From assembly GCA_026874595.1 (NCBI GenBank), contig CM049316.1, positions 76,119,676 through 76,183,675 of the forward strand: DNA of 64,000 bases. The letters are read 5' to 3'. The DNA comes from Sipunculus nudus. Its lineage: Eukaryota > Annelida > Sipuncula > Golfingiida > Sipunculidae. A model generated the notes under the pieces. The model had not been told where the DNA came from and searched no databases. It saw nothing but the letters and a program-made list of their open reading frames with translations. Of this stretch, positions 4,144-29,475 are shown piece after piece. Both the position numbers and the translations under genes were made by a program. Numbering within the stretch: position 1 is the first letter of the stretch; each line of letters opens with the position of its first letter.

Positions 4144-4352
4144 TCTAGTTGTAGCTCCTGGGCAATGGAAAGGCCCTCTTCTGATTGGAGGAAGCTGTAG
4201 ACCACGTGATGCGTGACCTTGCTGCCGTCCTTGAATGACCTCATTTCCATGCCGAAGGGTATCCAGCGGCTGGAGGTGTCCGTTGCGTTCTTGTTGATCA
4301 GCCAGACGCCGGATATAAGAGGCTCAGCTTTTTCTTCATCTAACGGCTCAAG
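4144..4352 (-). CDS. Gene A exon 2: paralog of gene B exon 2
   Basis: On the minus strand an acceptor (TGACACAG, then CTTGAG) opens a 209-nt exon ending at a donor GA|GTAGGT, so it runs from phase 0 to phase 2. It encodes 69 residues plus two bases. Against gene B exon 2 (197 nt, also phase 0 to 2) there is an ungapped 22-residue block P-x-G-x-E-x-x-S-F-x-D-x-x-x-V-x-x-H-V-V-x-S with 11 identities, then S-(I/V)-A-Q near the end. Length differs by exactly 12 nt. Equal phases and motif order show true exon homology rather than chance. The domain has no name I recognise; in gene B it belongs to the region before the beta-trefoil. Confidence 0.75.
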
Positions 4353-6282: not shown

Positions 6283-6801
6283 CTCCTTTACAAGCGGGCT
6301 AGCAGACCTCACCAGGTTGTCAATGACTGACCGTCGGAGGGACTTGAACCTTGACACCTGACATTTAACACTGGTCACCCGGGGCAACTGTTGGGGGGTA
6401 GTAGGCCACGAAACCTGGGAACTCAGCAGACATAACGTCTGCAGGTAACCTCCCTTATTTTTTAGAACACTGAAACCATCTTTTCTATTCTTCTCTTCAG
6501 TACGACTCTCTGGCCAATCGGGGGACAGTGATGTATCTCCCATAATCCTTTGCGCGGTCTTCTCTCGATCGGTGCTTGCTGACCGCTGGCGGACGGTGCA
6601 CCGTTGCACCTTACTCAAGAGTTTATTTTCGGGTGTTACCTCGGCAGCAGCTGGGAGGCAGGGCTCTCTCCATCCTCCCCTGCGGGATGGGTCGACGTTT
6701 CTGGTCCTTTCTCGTCCTCTTCTTACTCCTTGCAGTGTGTTATTGTCTTCAAATGTTCCATTAACACTGGCGGTTTCCGAACGGAGCACGCTTACAGGCA
6801 T
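6283..6801 (-). CDS. Gene A exon 1: N-terminus of IL-1-like gene paralog
   Basis: Reading leftward from an ATG at 6801, the frame stays open for 519 nt (173 codons) and meets a strong donor, AAGGAG|GTATGT, at 6283/6282 in phase 0. Gene A exon 2 begins in phase 0, and the exon 1/exon 2 junction of gene B is also phase 0. The region is GC- and CpG-rich compared with its flanks. The protein is basic and polar with no signal peptide or membrane segment, as in gene B. The last residues (VIDNLVRSASPLVKE) loosely resemble the end of gene B exon 1 (FNSLVSGCFQYVCQPLQ), otherwise the first exons have diverged. A plus-strand open frame at 6572-6874 overlaps; I judge it a shadow. Whether exons 3 onward survive is unknown. 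Confidence 0.5.
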
Positions 6802-21000: not shown

Positions 21001-21080
21001 GGGTTTTTCCCTCGCTTTCCCGCTTGTACGTATATATGAAGTCCCGCTCTGCACGCTATACAGATATTTATCAGTTTTCA
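21001..21080 (+). promoter_or_regulatory. Putative gene B core promoter with Rel/kappaB-like site
   Basis: GGGTTTTTCCC at 21001-21011 fits the Dorsal/Rel form GGG(W)4-5CCM. A second GCTTTCCC lies at 21014-21021; the same 8-mer is in the gene A promoter. TATATATGAA follows at 21031, and an initiator-like TCAGTT at 21071. The first ATG in the coding frame is at 21203, leaving a leader of about 130-140 nt. Confidence 0.45.
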
Positions 21081-21202: not shown

Positions 21203-21511
21203 ATGCTTGGCGTTACACCAACGTACAACACAAGTTGTGAAAAAAGCACGCGCTGTAACCACACTCTCGTGGTTCCCGTTCACGCACGCAGATCTCGTAG
21301 TCTCACGAGATATGAGCGCGCGCGAAAAGTTAACTACGACGGCTTCGTTACGAAAGTTCGTCTGCAACACCGAGAAATGTCAAGGACGCCCAGCCCTGAC
21401 GTCAGAGAACGAATACTGGAGCAGCATTTAAGTCCAATCTCCAAGACACCACCTGTTAGTTTCAACAGTTTGGTATCCGGTTGTTTCCAGTATGTATGCC
21501 AGCCCCTTCAG
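21203..21511 (+). CDS. Gene B exon 1 (residues 1-103)
   Basis: Starts at the first in-frame ATG (CCCAATATGC) after the putative promoter and ends at CTTCAG|GTGAGT in phase 0. The frame continues open upstream to 21158, but only with TTG codons. The sequence is basic (RRSRSLTRYERARK) with no hydrophobic leader. A perfect CRE octamer TGACGTCA lies at 21398-21405 inside the coding sequence. Confidence 0.65.
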
Positions 21512-24500
21512 GTGAGTTTTTAATGTATATTATTTTTTCACTAAAAACTGCAGTCATAAACGCATGCTCATGAAAATAGAAAATGCTGTTAAATATTGTT
21601 TGTTCAATGTTAATATATATATATATAACTGTTGGTGTCTGTGTACGGGAGAGATATTTAATACACAGGGTATTGCCCTTTACGTTTTTTACATTGTCTG
21701 TATACTGTTTCAGGAAAGCGAGGCTTCGATGACATCACTAGTCTCGATCACTCATATTGATAGAAAGACAGGGGCTACGCAGCTACTGCCGATCGGGCTA
21801 GAAATTGAAAGTTTTATGGACTGTTGTGACGTAGTCCGCCACGTGGTCCGATCAGTTTACAATCCGTTTGGCGCAGATTCAGAAAGTGTGGCCCAACAGT
21901 TTGGCTTCAGGTATGACTGTTTACCGTGTGTTTTACATTCTTGATACATAAAGAGCCAAATCGGTCTTACATCACAAGGGTGGATTCAGATCAGTTTACA
22001 ATCCGTTTGGCGCAGATTCAGAAAGTGTGGCCCAACATCGGTCTTACATCACAAGGGTGGATTCAGAATTGTAGAATGGTAGACAGTTTTTGAAATTTTA
22101 GATGCTAATGGCGCAATCAGGGGTAAATTAAAAAGTATTATGATGCAAAAATTCGGGTCCATTTTTTTATCAATATTATATATTAAGTTTACTAAATATT
22201 AATTACTCGCTTGTTGTTTTATTTCTAAAATTCTTTGGGTTGTAAAAATGGGGCGGGGTCATCCCCCTTTATCCGCTCCTATATCATATTCCAGCTATTC
22301 ACTCCAAATCAATATTTTAAGATCGGATGGGTTTAGGTTGGACATATTGTATTACAAAGATTACCATGTTGTGTTCTGTAATCCTGTTTATAAATCTATT
22401 TACAGTATACTTCTTCGGGGTTAAAATTCACAACACTATTGTCTGAGAGCTTTATATCTGTGAACAGAAACATGGCTGACGCTTTTCATATTTGTCATCA
22501 GTGTGACACAGCGAATTGGCAGGCGTTTAAGACCAAGATTATGTTACAGCCCAAAAATAGAACTATACTGTTTTCGTCAAACAAAGCAAAATTTTAATAA
22601 ATTACAACTTAATTTGTTCAAAGAATCACATCTTTGTTTCCCAGGGAGTGATTGCCTTGATATTGTTGATACGGTACATCTCGAGGTATAGTTCAAAATT
22701 TATCCACCAGGTATCAGGGCCATTAGGAATTCCTTGTTGGAGACAGATTACAAGGCATAAGTTATTTACTGTGGACAAACTCTTCATAAACAGGACATAG
22801 TGAATGATATTTGACCTTTTCTTACATCCTATATGCTAATATGCAGCATTTTAACAAACATATATATAATATGATATATCATTTAAATATGTGCGAACCA
22901 ATATTTGCCTCAACGATATTTCCGCGATCTCCATACTTAAGATGTTTGAAAGTCGATAAACATGCCATAGATAGCGATACACGAAGACTAAAATACGTAT
23001 GACCATCAAATCTAGGAATCCTTGATGCGGAATGAACATGGACGGAGTGTTTTCTATGTGATTTTTTTTCCTTTAAGAATAGAAACTCTTATTTGAAGAA
23101 AACAGACAAACGAATAGTTCTGGCATGATTTCAACTTCAGGCACGATAAGTTTCTTTTTAGGGCAAAGGGTGTTCCCGGAAGAAATTAATAGAAATATTT
23201 AAGGTCAAAATGCATAAGGTTTTCGATCAGATTGATTTAAAGCACTGAGGATACTAGATGCCATATAAACACGTGGAGGAGTCAGAAAACGTAAGCTGAA
23301 ACGAAAATTTTTCTTAAACATGATTATAGTAATACGGTATAATTGTAAAATACATTCTGATAGACAGGCAGACAGATTCACGAGACCAAGACATACACAG
23401 TGACAGTGAGGCAAAAGTGTGACAGTGAGAAAGATGTATAAACGGAGACGGAAAGACAAGCAGACAAAGTGAAAAACATATACACAACGACACACAAACA
23501 GAGTGAAAAACATATACAGACCGACAGACAAACAGACAGAATGAAAAACATACATTGCCCGACAGACAGACAGAGTTAAAAACGTATACAGACCAACATA
23601 CAAATAGACAGAGTGAAAAACATATACAGACCGACAGACAAACAGACAGAGTGCAAACAGATAAAGATTAACAATTAAAGACACCGGGATACATAGGGAA
23701 AGTAATACACACATATTGACAGACTCACACACACCTTGAAAGAAAGCTGTAGACTGCCAGAGAAAAGGGTAGAGAAACAGAGATAGAGAGACAGACTGAC
23801 AAAGACAGAGAAAGAGATAGAGAGAATGTGAGAGAGAAGGGGGAGGGGTAGACTTACCTGACAGACAGGTTATTATCATGATAAATATTATTAATGCAAT
23901 AATGATGTTATAATATGACAGGTTCTTATAAATATTTTCACAGAAAGAACGATGAGTTGTTGATGGTTGGAGAGGAAGACGTTGTTGATAAAACACAGTC
24001 TGAAGTGATCCATGCATTCAGACAGCTATACACGCGGGTACCGATGGAGCTTGTAAGTACGCGTGTACATAAAGATATCATCATCATTCAGACTGTACTG
24101 CTTTATGAGACTCGTTATTGGGTTATTAATGACCGAGTTCATGGTTATACCACATCAACATTTAACATGGCTCTGTAATTACACAGTATGTAAATAATCG
24201 GATGTATCGATAAAAAAAGATATACGTAATTGATTCCATGAAGATAATTATAGTATGTACACTTTTCTGCAAAACTGAAGTCTGTTACACAGTGGGACGC
24301 ATATTGAAATTTGTTGGGTTTTTTTTCAACTCACAGATTAGATCCATAGGGTAAGCTGTAATTGAGGAGTGAGGCATGGGCCTAATTAACTAGAATGAAA
24401 AACAAAAACCATATCTTGTGAAATATTTTAGTAATTAATAAAAATCAATATATGAGGAATCAATTTTTTACAAGTACATTTAAAGGCTGCTGACTAGTTG

Positions 24501-27500
24501 TTGAATGTAACAAATATTTTTAACAAAATGTAATTGTTAAAGTGAGACTACAACCCCAAAGCAGAGTCCATGTCACTTGGCCAAAAGAATGAAAAGTTTG
24601 CAAAATATACATTTTTTTATGTTGTGTAATTTTACATCTCATATTAGGCCTTTGGTCCCTCACCATTTCTAGTGTCAAGTTGTGTGATAATATTTAGGTT
24701 TAAGAAAGTAATTTCAAAATTTCAATGGGCGACCACTGGTGGAACAGATTAAAACATAAACGTGTTGACGATTCTACCAAGAAATTTATTTGTCTATCTG
24801 TCTGTCTCTTTCTCTCTCTTTCTCTTTCTATTTCATGTTTAAGTCAACACGTGTTCATGTATATATCGAGGTATCTTTAGTTACTTAAGCTCTTTGTCTC
24901 GCTTTGTCTCCACTCAAGTATTTAAATGCGTGACTGACTGAACGTTTTTATTAAAGGTGTACCGACGGCAGATCTCGGAGGGAAACTCGGAAATGCCCGA
25001 GCATGAGTACATTGAGGTCACAGGCAACATCGACGTTGTTGAGATAGGTGAGTACACGAACATTAAATAAACCAAAAAATACTAAATAAAAAGGGGTTTT
25101 ATTGGCAGGGGCTCTGTTGTTCTGAAAACTGTTTCTTATAGGTACTTGTGTCTGTAATAAACAATGGATTAGGCACTATGGACTTGACATGTAGTTTTGA
25201 TACTGGATCCTGATGTGAAGGTTTCTACATGGATTTCGTAGTTTTAACACTTGACTCCGTTGTGAAGGGTACTTAATGGATTCTGTGGTTTTGATACTGG
25301 ATTCTGTTGTTAAGAGTAACTAATGGATTCTGTGGTTTCGATACTGGATTCTGTTGTTAAGGGTACTGTATGGATGTTGTGGTTAAGATAATGGACTCTG
25401 TTTCTAAGCAGTGATATAGTCGAGTTCACACCACCCGAGCTCCAGTCCAAGTCCGAGTTCAGGCCACACGAGTCCAAGTCCGAGTCCTCGTGGTTCGAGT
25501 CCAAGTCCACCTTATTCAAGTCTGAGTCTTTTGAAACTCGAGTCCGAGGCCAATATAAATATTCTTATTGCAAGAAATTTTAAAGGATATCTGAGACAAT
25601 CATGCAAATTTTATGTTAATTTACAAGTGCCTTTTACTTGAATGTTTGTTTACGTTTATCACCTGATGCAGAGCTAATACTTGGTATGTATAGTCTGATT
25701 TTTTTATTTTTATTCTGTTGGTAGTTCTCGCTAGTGCACAGTCTTTACATAGTGTCTGACGGAGCTTTCGTTTCTACTAAACTCGAGATCTATCGATTGA
25801 TCCTGCCTGATATCTCGAGTTCTAACCTCAGAGTCCAAGAACAAGTCCAAGTCCAGGACCCTGTGGTCCAAGTCCTAATCTTTAATAAAAGTTGACTTGA
25901 ATCCTACATTACTGTGTCTAAGGCACCAAAGACTCTGTGGTTGGAACACAGGGTCGAAGGCTCCAATACATGTGGCAAAAGTGTAAACTTATAACCTTAG
26001 AGATTAATTGAAATTTCAAATCCCCAATCTCCTGCAAACGAACTTATAGTTAAGATGAATGAAATTATTTTATCACTTATTAACTTTGGAAGAAAACAGG
26101 CCACGGTTGTAACCTGGACAGAAATCTCTAAGTAAGACAGACTATTTTCATATCAGGTCATGCAGTAGTATATCACAGATGCCCCTAGCTTAATTACTAT
26201 TGTTGTTTATATGAAAAAGGTAAATTACTCGCAAATTAAGAATTACTCGCACATAAAATGTATTTAACTGGAACGTCCTTTTTTCTCTTTACAGACAAAG
26301 AGGAACCAGTTTGTGTTGTGAGTGAATCAGTCTTACTGGGGACGACTCAAGTTAGTGCTTCCGGTCTCTACATGGTGTCGCTAAAGTCGCGACATCAGGC
26401 TAACATCGCTGGCTCGGACAATGTGACGTACCTGAAGGCGACGCAAGGATCTCTGGAAATGTCGGACTCAGGGCTAAAAGACAGCGAAGAATGTAAGTTT
26501 CTCTGTATATCTCTCTGTCTGTCCCTCATTTATTCCCGTATATGACTCTGTCTAGGTGTCTGTCTGCGAAATGTTTACTGTAACTTGATGACCAAATTTA
26601 ATTTATAAATATTATAAAAAATGTGTATATACTCCAGTTTGCTAGGCAATGTTCTTTTTTTGTCTTGAAATGAATTTATATTCACATTTGAATTTCAATT
26701 GTTGTTGTTTGTTACCGTCATGCTTACAGTGTTTTACTGTCAAAAGAAAATTAGTTATGACCAACAACTGTGTCTGTCTGTGACCTGGATCTACTTTGGC
26801 TTGTCATTTACTTACAGTGTAGTTTTATATTTGTTATTATATGTACCTTATATATTTAGTTATGTGTGGCTTTTTGTAGCTATGTTTCCTTCATATATGT
26901 TTTTTTTTTACACGTGTTTATACACGGGTTTCCCTTATATATGTATTTGTGTCCGACGTGTGTTTGTACACGACAGGGGCGAATTCAGGATTTAGGAAAG
27001 GGGGGGGGGGGGTCCAACCCAGGACTCATGAAAACCCTAAAAAAAAAGGTGCCCAGGTCTGAAAAAGGGGGGGGGGGGTCCAAGCCGCAAAATTTCTCTT
27101 AAGCACTTAAAAAACATTTTTTATGATGAAAAAGGGGGGGGGGGGGGTTCCGGACCCCCTGGACCCCCAACCCTTGCTCCGCTACTGCACGAGTTTCCCT
27201 TATATTTTTTAGTTTGTTTTATGTGTTCTACACCGGTTTGCTTTATATTTGTAGTTGTGTTTGACGTGTGTTTGTACACGGGTTTCCTTTATATTTGTAG
27301 TTGTGTTTGACGTGTGTTTGTACACGGGTTTCATGGGGGACGGCAGAGCTGTTTCTTTCTTCGTCATCAGTCACCAGGATCAAGGGAAAACTTTCTACTG
27401 TAGAGCAATCTCCGCTCAACAGCTGGCGCTACAGGTAATGTGAATTTTTATTGATGTTCAAAACAGAAATAAAGAATTCAGGTGGCTCTGATAATTTTCC

Positions 27501-27689
27501 TTTAAACATTATAAATCCGAAATAGCGTGTCACTAGTGTGTTATAAATAAATCCCCCTGTCTGTTTACGAGGAAGTAAGACCAAGAAAATTGAGGGAAGC
27601 ATTTTATTTCTGTTTACTCCACTTGTCCTCCTCTGAATTTACAAGTCTCAACATTGAACACCTTTTTTCTGGGCTAAATGGTATGAATG

Positions 27690-27760
<71 letters not shown>

Positions 27761-28900
27761 GTGAAATCGCTTAAATATTAGAGTTCATAATTTTTCACTT
27801 TTGAACTACAGTTGGTAAACACGTCTTAAATAGCAATTTTTTTTAGGATTAGCCTCAACTTTCAAAACCATTTTCTGTAATGGAGTATGACACCTGCAAA
27901 ATATCGTTTCCATTATATTTGAATATTGATCGCATTCTACGGATTTAAAGTTTGAGTACTGACCGTGTCTTTCACAGGAAGCCGCGAGTGAAGATAGCTA
28001 CACAGACGATCCAAAGGCTGACATCAGCTTCAAGTGTGGACGACTTGGTCATCTTTACTTCTTTGAGTCATTGAAACATAAGGGTGGGTGTAATTTATTT
28101 CCCATTCATAATTTAGTAATTTATTACATCACAACATACTGTGTCAAAGGTGAGTCAAACGGTCCAGCGTTTGTTTTCATTTATTGTAACAAATGTCACC
28201 TCACTTTTGTGATAGATAAATTGCATAAAGTTACTTCTCTGATTTTATTTGATTAACCAGATATTCATGCTGAGATCTCAAGCATGTAGGGTAAGATAAC
28301 ATAAAATCATTTTGGAGAGGATCTGTGTGTGATTTATAGCGATCTTTACTGCGTTAGCATGAACATTCTGACGATGGTCAATTTTTCTTTTCAGGAAATT
28401 TTATCAAGCGGGAAGAGAATACGATTAGCCTGAGAGAGGGCAATCCGGTGCAAGACCGACACTTTCAGTTTTACGTTCGCCATGACAAAGATTGTATCCA
28501 CTGTAAATCGGCGGCCCGTGGTCTTGCCCCGGTCTCACGATCGTCTGCCCCAACTCTGAACTGCAGCAGACGAGATTTTACTGACCTGCGCAGACAGTCC
28601 TGTCGTACGTTCGGACAATCAGTCCCAGAATTCTTGCAGTTGATCCCTGACGCGTCAAAACCCATCATGCTGGCTTTAGACGCGTTTAACAGTTTGACCT
28701 TTGAAAAAGAATCACGACAACCACGTGACATGAGGAACACAGTAACGAAACCAGGGAGTTTTGGTTTGTTAAAGGAGCAGCGACGGTCTGCCAATCGATC
28801 AACGCGACGGCATGGCCGAACAGCTGGAAAGAACTGGCATAAGCTGAGAAGGCATAAGTCACATGAACCAGATCAGGGGACAACAGTGTTCGCCTGTTAA
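21203..28900 (+). CDS. Gene B: leaderless IL-1-like beta-trefoil protein, 8 exons, 549 aa
   Basis: Eight exons (21203-21511, 21714-21910, 23944-24052, 24957-25047, 26295-26492, 27301-27434, 27978-28083, 28395-28900) sum to 1650 nt, exactly 550 codons including TAA, with every junction in frame. There is no signal peptide or membrane span. Residues 1-236 form an unnamed N-terminal part. Residues 237-412 resemble an IL-1-family trefoil. SGLYMVSL stands in the place of the IL-1 SGPY strand, and F375-E-S-L then N383-F-I matches the start of the IL-1 signature [FC]-x-S-[ASLV]-x(2)-P-x(2)-[FYLIV]-[LI] at five positions (the Pro is Lys). HFQFYV follows as the last strand. Residues 413-549 are a basic tail. 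FGF was considered and fits less well. By family knowledge the product would be a cytosolic cytokine precursor released by proteolysis; this is inference. Confidence 0.7.
21714..21910 (+). CDS. Gene B exon 2 (residues 104-168)
   Basis: Acceptor CTGTTTCAG, donor TTCAG|GTATGA, phase 0 to 2. It carries the P129-x-G-x-E-x-x-S-F-x-D ... H146-V-V-x-S150 block that is also present in gene A exon 2. This is the strongest evidence that both are real exons under constraint. Confidence 0.8.
21990..22067 (+). repeat. Local duplication of an exon 2 piece in intron 2
   Basis: 48 bp of exon 2 (21851-21898) is repeated without change at 21990-22037. It is bracketed by two identical 31-bp copies starting ATCGGTCTTACATC at 21960 and 22037. 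The identity shows a recent event. Confidence 0.95.
23165..23860 (+). repeat. Intron 2 GA-rich minisatellite and duplicated segment (parent copy)
   Basis: Between about 23470 and 23650 a 36-38-bp unit (GTGAAAAACATATACAGACC then GACAGACAAACAGACAGA) recurs about five times. The region is the parent of the copy at 29965-30535, which has only one such unit. A 270-codon minus-strand frame through it is a by-product of the repeat. Confidence 0.9.
23944..24052 (+). CDS. Gene B exon 3 (residues 169-205)
   Basis: Acceptor TTTTCACAG, donor CTT|GTAAGT, phase 2 to 0. Encodes RKNDELLMVGEEDVVDK ... YTRVPMEL. The acceptor and first codons are repeated in decayed form at 30525-30540. Confidence 0.75.
24957..25047 (+). 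CDS. Gene B exon 4 (residues 206-235), ends in VEI(D)
   Basis: Acceptor TATTAAAG, donor GATAG|GTGAGT, phase 0 to 1. Encodes VYRRQISEGNSEMPEHEYIE followed by VTGNIDVVEI. The split codon completes an Asp with the first two bases of exon 5, giving VEID at 233-236 directly before the trefoil. Confidence 0.75.
25409..25914. mobile_element. Non-autonomous hAT-like element in intron 4
   Basis: Inverted ends CAGTGATATAGTCGAGTTCA and, from the right, CAGTAATGTAGGATTCAAGT. Flanking 8-mers TTTCTAAG and TGTCTAAG differ by one base, fitting an 8-bp hAT target duplication. The interior is GAGTCCAAGTCC-rich. Confidence 0.75.
26295..26492 (+). CDS. Gene B exon 5 (residues 236-301), first part of trefoil
   Basis: Acceptor TCTTTACAG, donor GAAT|GTAAGT, phase 1 to 1. 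It carries EPVCVVSESV, then LLGT, SGLYMVSLKS and NVTYLKATQGS. These line up with the first strands of mature IL-1beta starting just after its caspase-1 site. Confidence 0.8.
26906..27332 (+). repeat. 46-bp minisatellite in intron 5, containing the exon 6 acceptor
   Basis: Units contain TTTATATTTGTAGTTGTG followed by TTTGACGTGTGTTTGTACAC. The two last copies are nearly identical and 46 bp apart, and each carries a TTTGTAG acceptor (27254 and 27300). A 214-bp MITE interrupts the array. Confidence 0.85.
26974..27187. mobile_element. 214-bp MITE with poly-G runs
   Basis: Ends CAGGGGCGAA and, inverted, CAGTAGCGGA, flanked by CACGA on both sides (26969-26973 and 27188-27192). Three poly-G runs lie inside. 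It is inserted in the 46-bp minisatellite. Confidence 0.65.
27301..27434 (+). CDS. Gene B exon 6 (residues 302-346)
   Basis: The acceptor TATATTTGTAG at 27300 keeps phase 1 and gives FVFDVCLYTGFMGDGR, then AVSFFVISHQDQGKTFYCRA and ISAQQLALQ. The donor is CTACAG|GTAATG (phase 0). A weaker acceptor at 27348 (GGCAGAG) would drop 16 residues and also keep frame. AVSFFV ... TFYCRA ... LALQ matches the beta-strands of the IL-1 segment ending in LQLE. Length is 134 nt, against 131 nt as I recall for the matching IL1B exon. Confidence 0.65.
27435..27977 (+). other. Gene B intron 6
   Basis: Contains a long (TA)n array at 27694-27758. No other feature recognised. Confidence 0.85.
27978..28083 (+). CDS. 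Gene B exon 7 (residues 347-381)
   Basis: Acceptor TCTTTCACAG, donor AAGG|GTGGGT, phase 0 to 1. Encodes EAASEDSYTDDPKADISFKC followed by GRLGHLYFFESLKHK. The F-E-S-L is the start of the IL-1 signature. Confidence 0.8.
28395..28900 (+). CDS. Gene B exon 8 (residues 382-549 and stop)
   Basis: Acceptor TCTTTTCAG, phase 1. It begins with GNFIKREENTISLREG, then DRHFQFYVRHD, closing the trefoil. A 137-residue tail follows that vertebrate IL-1 proteins lack. The tail has five Cys and a strongly basic cluster near the end (RRSANRSTRRHGR ... KLRRHKSHE). TAA is at 28898-28900. A minus-strand open frame overlaps but lacks exon signals. Confidence 0.8.
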
Positions 28901-29475
28901 TCAATCATAAAAAAAAGAAAATGGTGAATATCTAATTATTTAAACAGCTGTGACATTTGTTTTACATTTAAATTATTAGACTGAATTTTCTCCGCTTTTT
29001 CCTAACGCCTGCTACAAATATTCGAGAGCGACCGTCGACCATGTATAAAATATGCATGTATTTATGTGTAATTTTGTATATAAATGTATAATTTTATTTA
29101 TTTGACACGCTTCAGAATGGTGTTTACAGCACCATATGATGGCTTGAATATAATTTATCTATTATTATAAACTTAACATTGTGATGGCAGTTGGAGAAAG
29201 AGTCTTCACGCCACGCTGTCACAGACCTTTATTCAGCGAGTCTCACTGGTGTCAATTTAATGTATAATGAACAAAGCAATTGAACCAAACAAATAACTTG
29301 CGAACATTTGTTCTACGCGAACGTTTTTTTTTTTTTTTTTTTTTTGCTTTTGTAAATTGTATCTGTTAATCTTAGAATAGTTCACACTTTTATATAGATT
29401 TACTGTTATTTTACATTTGACTGCCAAAAGGTGTACACTATGAAATAAATATTTTCATACAACATTATTAATATG
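28901..29475 (+). promoter_or_regulatory. Gene B 3' UTR with AU-rich elements and poly(A) signal
   Basis: At least six ATTTA pentamers and one exact nonamer TTATTTATT (29094-29102) lie between the stop and AATAAA at 29444. A T-run stands at about 29327-29345. By analogy with cytokine mRNAs these could speed decay; in AT-rich DNA some occur by chance. Confidence 0.5.

Follow-up and report, generated by a model that had tools for sequence, protein, structure and literature searches.

A Probable IL-1-Superfamily Gene with a PDZ-Like Domain in the Genome of Sipunculus nudus

The stretch of Sipunculus nudus DNA analyzed here (64,000 nucleotides, called the window; positions 76119676–76183675 of contig CM049316.1, hereafter C11) carries at 21203–28900, on the plus strand, a gene that very likely belongs to the IL-1 superfamily and is of the fish nIL-1F type. 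Its predicted product is leaderless and combines a PDZ domain at the N terminus with a β-trefoil like those of IL-1 and IL-18 and a variable tail. In this lophotrochozoan genome, the gene belongs to a tandem group of at least four that look intact. Judged by its sequence, it is a diverged member of the superfamily in a protostome, for which we infer a cytokine function. The preliminary description of the locus had proposed an IL-1-like precursor. This proposal is the reading that fits the evidence best (a profile of four genes, the ranking of PDB sequences, the relatives, and the Hox genes of the host), with the amendment that the nearest published relative is nIL-1F and not IL-1β.

Gene Model and Relatives on the Same Chromosome

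The eight exons (Table 1) join into 1650 nucleotides, that is, 549 codons and a stop, and all seven introns are GT-AG. The only stop in frame is the last codon, and the remaining five frames have 19–39 stops each. G+C content is 0.45–0.53 in the exons and 0.285–0.379 in the introns; over the whole window, the CpG observed/expected ratio is 0.75. The unbroken frame reported in the preliminary description thus stands, and exons 2–8 are matched in relatives. No homolog of exon 1 was found, and it has no counterpart among the related genes. The protein contains no signal-peptide-like stretch, by the sole measure of hydropathy (maximum 19-residue value of −0.21 in the first 50 residues of exon 1).

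Relatives were sought in the host's own genome (1.43 Gb, 153 contigs). At E ≤ 10, the window gene matched 10 places. Its own exons account for four, five lie elsewhere on C11, and one is on C2 (E 9.95), which lies in an unrelated reading frame and was rejected as a relative. None of the 22 pattern matches on viral contigs is a relative either. Exons 2–8 were modeled in three genes: B (C11 75719083–75715315, minus strand), A1 (C11 76079001–76091190, plus strand), and A3 (C11 76124027–76108313, minus strand), the last of which starts inside the window on the strand opposite to the window gene. In each, these exons follow the order of the window gene, in frame, with GT-AG introns of phases II,0,I,I,0,I, and the joined exons leave an open frame over 333–415 residues. 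Exon 6 of the window gene is 134 bp long, and its counterparts in the relatives measure 134, 137, and 131 bp, which supports the acceptor initially chosen for it. As gene predictions, exons 2–8 of the window gene are corroborated by these three relatives on the same chromosome.

Two further copies, A2 (approximately C11 76100706–76104899) and C (approximately C11 76361461–76351662), are interrupted by in-frame stops in at least one piece. A1 (76082059–76091190) and A2 are almost identical and look like a recent duplication, the stop of A2 falling in its exon 7 piece; C, with its stops, is a decayed relative of gene B. Upstream of A1, at about C11 76077017–76078258, there is an open candidate first exon, 414 codons long and with a phase-0 donor; it has no homology evidence and by eye is rich in acidic residues. 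The third trefoil unit of A3 (window 4144–4352 and C11 76115973–76108313, minus strand) reads FESYKYRGHFMC and is nearer to the motif of the IL-1 receptor antagonist than the unit of the window gene is.

Likeness to IL-1, IL-18, and Fish nIL-1F

A profile was built from the trefoil regions of the window gene, A1, A3, and B. It contains no interleukin and is therefore better evidence than a single sequence. Compared with 177,635 PDB sequences, it gave 16 matches at E ≤ 10, of which ranks 1–11 are all IL-18 (E 8.8e-5 to 0.0083); ranks 12–16 (E 0.11–1) comprise two MtrB proteins, two glycosidases, and a ribosomal protein. The best-scoring IL-18 match is a variant chain, and the chain identical to the human IL-18 used here is found at E 0.0054. 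When profiles are compared with each other, the host profile matches that of nine human IL-1 members with a probability of 88 and E 3.1e-6 over 115 columns, at a score of 42.6 (best of 100 column shuffles, 23.8; reversed alignment, 21.5). Taken individually, the four host genes reach 12.2–19.7 bits against the nine-member IL-1 profile, and none exceeds 3.8 bits against the nine-member FGF profile. Among single human members, IL-18 is the only clear match to the host profile (19.8 bits); the next two score 9.9 and 8.8 bits, and IL-1β alone scores 4.0 bits. The confident part of the profile alignment begins at the border of exons 5 and 6. By profile, then, it is the last two thirds of the trefoil that resemble IL-1 and IL-18.

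The evidence from the window gene alone is moderate. With a profile of IL-1β, IL-1α, IL-18, and IL-33 its trefoil scores 19.2 bits (none of 5000 shuffles equals this, the best reaching 10.7), and with the nine-member human IL-1 profile it scores 12.2 bits (again none of 5000, best 10.2). In leave-one-out profiles it ranges from 4.6 (IL-18 omitted) to 15.1 bits, and the accepted member IL-33 scores 9.7 bits. With hhalign the match is weak (E 0.071 for IL-1, 0.91 for FGF). No match to the trefoil piece alone was found in PDB, and in Pfam this piece matches DGKI at E 0.017, below the cut-off. The motifs first quoted for the trefoil are present in the window protein.

The exon structure provides a comparison with IL-1β. 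Exon 6, aligned as F/VFDVCLYTG...LALQ/ in the window gene with VVFSMSFVQG...LQLE in IL-1β, is flanked by the phase pair I–0, and the human IL-1β exon over the same strands, which we take to be 131 bp long, is nearly equal in length to the host exons of 134, 134, 137, and 131 bp. The window gene has intron phases 0,II,0,I,I,0,I, a series that contains the run II,0,I,I,0 and continues with an extra intron inside the last trefoil unit. This run is typical of IL-1β according to passages of PMC4880838, where the text assigns the twelve strands to the last three exons and a figure legend assigns them to the last four. The likeness extends to the IL-1 receptor antagonist and the IL-36 group, whereas IL-1β matches poorly on its own and the host genes lack its strict signature. 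IL-18 is the best PDB match, its second and third trefoil units match those of the host, and the host gene has in common with it a spacing of F-E-S, two residues, [EK]-G, and F-[IL]; in contrast, the human IL-18 chain itself is matched with only the modest E given above, and the first third of its trefoil is not aligned.

Exons 2–4 appear to encode a PDZ-like domain, N-terminal to the trefoil, in the place of a prodomain; the preliminary description had not noticed it. Their four-gene profile gave 87 PDB matches at E ≤ 10, and the first ten listed are PDZ proteins (PSD-95, MAGI-1, MAGI-2, and MUPP1; E 1.5e-5 to 4.1e-4); the matched stretch corresponds to the C-terminal half of a PDZ domain. 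In Pfam, the window protein matches PDZ_6 at residues 158–187 (E 0.096) and gene B matches PDZ_6 (E 6.4e-5) and PDZ (E 0.0087), all below the cut-off, and A1 and A3 show no PDZ match. The published make-up of fish nIL-1F is a PDZ and an IL-1 domain (excerpts of PMC7144542), and fish nIL-1Fm is reported to lack a signal peptide and to antagonize IL-1β by competing for its receptor (excerpts of PMC4929537). As described there, the fish genes resemble the window gene in having both domains, no signal peptide, and several coding exons (seven in lumpfish). They differ in their host, in protein length (352 residues in lumpfish versus 549 here), and in the features that here comprise eight coding exons with an intron within the last trefoil unit, a long variable tail, and several tandem copies. 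The likeness to nIL-1F is one of architecture.

Several observations weigh against membership in the IL-1 superfamily. In the window protein, Pfam finds neither IL1 nor FGF at E ≤ 10. A1 has no Pfam match and B has only its PDZ matches and a weak DUF1365, so that IL1 is lacking in two of the three relatives. The suggested check with Pfam IL1 gave a weak match in A3 (PF00340, its sole match, E 0.11, 12.6 bits for a cut-off of 25), and every PDZ or IL1 match falls under the curated cut-off. By profile, no confident alignment to IL-1 covers the first third of the trefoil, and forcing the alignment adds no conserved pattern; the earlier placement of EPV and SGLYMVSL on the start of IL-1β (residues 1–30) is accordingly abandoned, as confident alignment begins later. 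Omission of IL-18 from the profile lowers the window gene to 4.6 bits. Against the nine-member IL-1 profile FGF2 reaches 15.6 bits, more than the 12.2 bits of the window gene, and the host profile gives FGF4 6.1 bits, more than it gives IL-37, IL-1β, or IL-33. Since the four- and nine-member IL-1 profiles give FGF2 15.6–16.4 bits and FGF4 11.9–12.6 bits, IL-1 cannot be told apart from other trefoils by IL-1 profile scores alone. A phase run such as that of IL-1β is expected by chance, at any of three offsets, in approximately 1.2–1.3% of cases under assumed phase frequencies. The splice borders of the relatives were chosen manually after the model of the window gene; hence, the agreement of their phases is not blind, and its independent part is the open frame left by each choice.

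Other features are absent from the host genes or private to the window gene. The strict IL-1 signature (PROSITE, in the form assumed here) fails in all four host genes; in the window gene, where N-F-I and F-E-S-L had been described as lying at signature spacing, five of nine fixed positions agree and 1798 of 2000 shuffles do as well or better. As this is no better than chance, the signature was dropped as evidence. It also fails in four of nine accepted human members (IL-18, IL-33, IL-36γ, and IL-37) and is therefore not treated as defining. A possible caspase site, VEID, at residues 233–236 (exon 4/5 border) is absent from the three relatives and was likewise dropped as evidence. The C-terminal tails vary in length and charge and are very basic in one of the four genes, the window gene. 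Because VEID and the basic tail are found in the window gene alone, neither can explain how the group as a whole works.

Alternative Readings

The main rival retains both the fold and the ancestry and takes the protein to be an intracellular PDZ-trefoil adaptor rather than an extracellular ligand, the use as a cytokine having come later, in vertebrates. The lack of a signal-peptide-like stretch, the PDZ-like domain, the absence, in the region joining the PDZ domain to the trefoil, of any cleavage site conserved across the four genes, and the very basic tail of one of them all fit such an adaptor. However, leaderless precursors are usual in the IL-1 family, and nIL-1Fm, which has the same architecture, is reported to antagonize IL-1β through receptor competition (both from passages of PMC4929537). 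Tandem copies and fast divergence would also fit immune ligands. On balance the adaptor is rather unlikely.

Convergence of another trefoil, FGF-like or from a separate invertebrate family, on an IL-1-like pattern is improbable. FGFs share the β-trefoil superfamily, a few of them (FGF2 and FGF4) score with IL-1 profiles, and the first third of the host trefoil is unaligned. Yet the window trefoil scores 0.0 bits with the nine-member FGF profile, a value reached by 872 of 5000 shuffles, and the host profile compared with that of seven FGFs has a probability of 0.7 and E 0.086 (IL-1 and FGF profiles match each other with a probability of 39 and E 3.1e-4). The PDB ranking is headed by IL-18 and includes no FGF among its 16 matches, and both the PDZ partner and the intron phases are common to IL-1-family genes. 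The host genes have no FGF profile match, and the FGF signature, in the form we assume for it, is absent from the window protein. The FGF alternative, which the preliminary description had singled out for checking, scored worse than IL-1, and FGF identity was rejected.

A vertebrate origin, by contamination or by transfer of a fish nIL-1F gene, is very improbable, even if the PDZ and IL-1 architecture is reported from fish in the passages cited above. The locus lies within a 79-Mb contig, the genome has a Hox cluster of lophotrochozoan type, intact and decayed relatives lie on the same contig, and the window gene has diverged too far for Pfam to match it to IL1; an ancient transfer may nevertheless have taken place. 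With a Hox probe, 13 loci matched at E ≤ 1e-12. Nine of them lie on C12 (56.36–58.27 Mb), another three on C10, and the last on C1; by pattern a homeodomain is readable at 12 of these 13 loci. One C12 gene has KLTGP directly after the homeodomain, which we take to be the Lox5 mark of lophotrochozoans, and others resemble Lox4/Lox2 and Post2. Mollusk hemocyanin (PF14830) had no match, but neither had the controls of that search. A vertebrate genome would have at least four Hox clusters. Nine Hox-type matches in one cluster, including a Lox5-type gene, identify the host as a lophotrochozoan, in agreement with the invertebrate host first suggested.

That the locus is noncoding or dead, its exons joined by chance, is scarcely credible: two related copies (A2 and C) have stops and exon 1 is unsupported, but there are 549 open codons and a contrast in G+C, and frame and splice sites are kept over exons 2–8 in four diverged genes.

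Flanking Features, Possible Mode of Action, and Meaning for the IL-1 Family

The features of the window are given in Table 1. The pattern GGGWWWWWCCC, presumably the NF-κB consensus, matches once in the window (0.54 expected; at least one match in 42 of 100 shuffles), and in 153 kb a second place matched. The seven ATTTA motifs of the presumed 3′ untranslated region compare with a shuffle mean of 3.17, and 27 of 1000 shuffles reach seven. Together, the NF-κB-like site and these motifs lend slight support to the idea that the gene is inducible. A 52-nucleotide piece near the end of exon 2 (21847–21898) is repeated at 98% in intron 2 (21986–22037), and a 31-nucleotide direct repeat lies beside that intronic copy. 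Positions 1–2150 of the window form a minisatellite-like stretch, where at least two reading frames contain long open frames of repetitive sequence.

Table 1. Features of the window gene, its flanks, and the part of gene A3 lying in the window
Feature	Positions in window	Strand	Basis or remark
NF-κB-like site GGGTTTTTCCC (weak)	21001..21011	+	~200 bp upstream of ATG
TATA-like sequence TATATATGAAG upstream of exon 1	21031..21041	+	By eye; AT repeats common in window
Exon 1, residues 1–103	21203..21511	+	Joined model; no signal-peptide-like hydrophobic stretch
Exon 2, PDZ-like domain, first half	21714..21910	+	Joined model and counterparts in related genes
Exon 3, PDZ-like domain, core	23944..24052	+	109 bp, equal in all three modeled relatives
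Exon 4, PDZ-like domain, end, and linker	24957..25047	+	Joined model, relatives
Exon 5, presumed first third of trefoil	26295..26492	+	Conserved in relatives; no confident IL-1 alignment
Exon 6, second third of trefoil (134 bp, phase 1 in, phase 0 out)	27301..27434	+	
Exon 7, third trefoil unit including FESLKHKG	27978..28083	+	Relatives, profile alignment
Exon 8, first part, trefoil end (GNFIKREENTISL...HFQFYV)	28395..28495	+	Relatives, profile alignment
Exon 8, remainder, basic C-terminal tail, residues 416–549 (134 residues, isoelectric point 11.2), and stop	28496..28900	+	
Presumed 3′ untranslated region	28901..29455	+	Seven ATTTA; AATAAA at 29444
A3 exon 2 (PDZ half)	4144..4352	-	Homology; later A3 exons beyond window
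A3 candidate first exon, 163 codons from ATG to phase-0 donor	6313..6801	-	No homology evidence

If the window gene is an IL-1-superfamily member of the nIL-1F type, its precursor would probably be made in the cytosol, where the PDZ domain would anchor or inhibit it. Damage or infection might then induce the gene through Toll/NF-κB, with exit by lysis or by cleavage of the linker by a protease, a step for which we see even chances. With a slight preference over other outcomes, the freed trefoil would bind an Ig-TIR receptor on neighboring cells, either as an agonist or, like fish nIL-1Fm, as an antagonist.

IL-1 genes are stated to be absent outside vertebrates and IL-1-receptor-like genes to be older (passages of PMC9020223 and PMC9382457), so that the receptors are left without ligands. 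For annelids and bivalves, PMC9756803 lists IL-17, TNF, MIF, and other cytokines and, in the passages covered, no IL-1 gene; the IL-1α-like molecules that it mentions in annelids are known from antibody evidence only. No report of an invertebrate IL-1-family gene was found in one open literature library (preprints and most subscription journals being outside this scope). As a kind of molecule the gene is not new, because fish have the same pair of domains, but a PDZ-IL-1 gene in a protostome would be a surprise. It is possible, although we lean somewhat to the other side, that the IL-1 superfamily dates back at least to the common ancestor of protostomes and deuterostomes and originated as a PDZ-trefoil protein, a form kept by nIL-1F and the host genes, and that the propeptide exons of vertebrate IL-1β (phases II,0,I) are worn-down PDZ exons. 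A PDZ-IL-1 family in a lophotrochozoan would in itself supply candidate ligands for the older receptors, date the origin of the IL-1 family to early bilaterians, and hint at the ancestral nature of the IL-1 prodomain.

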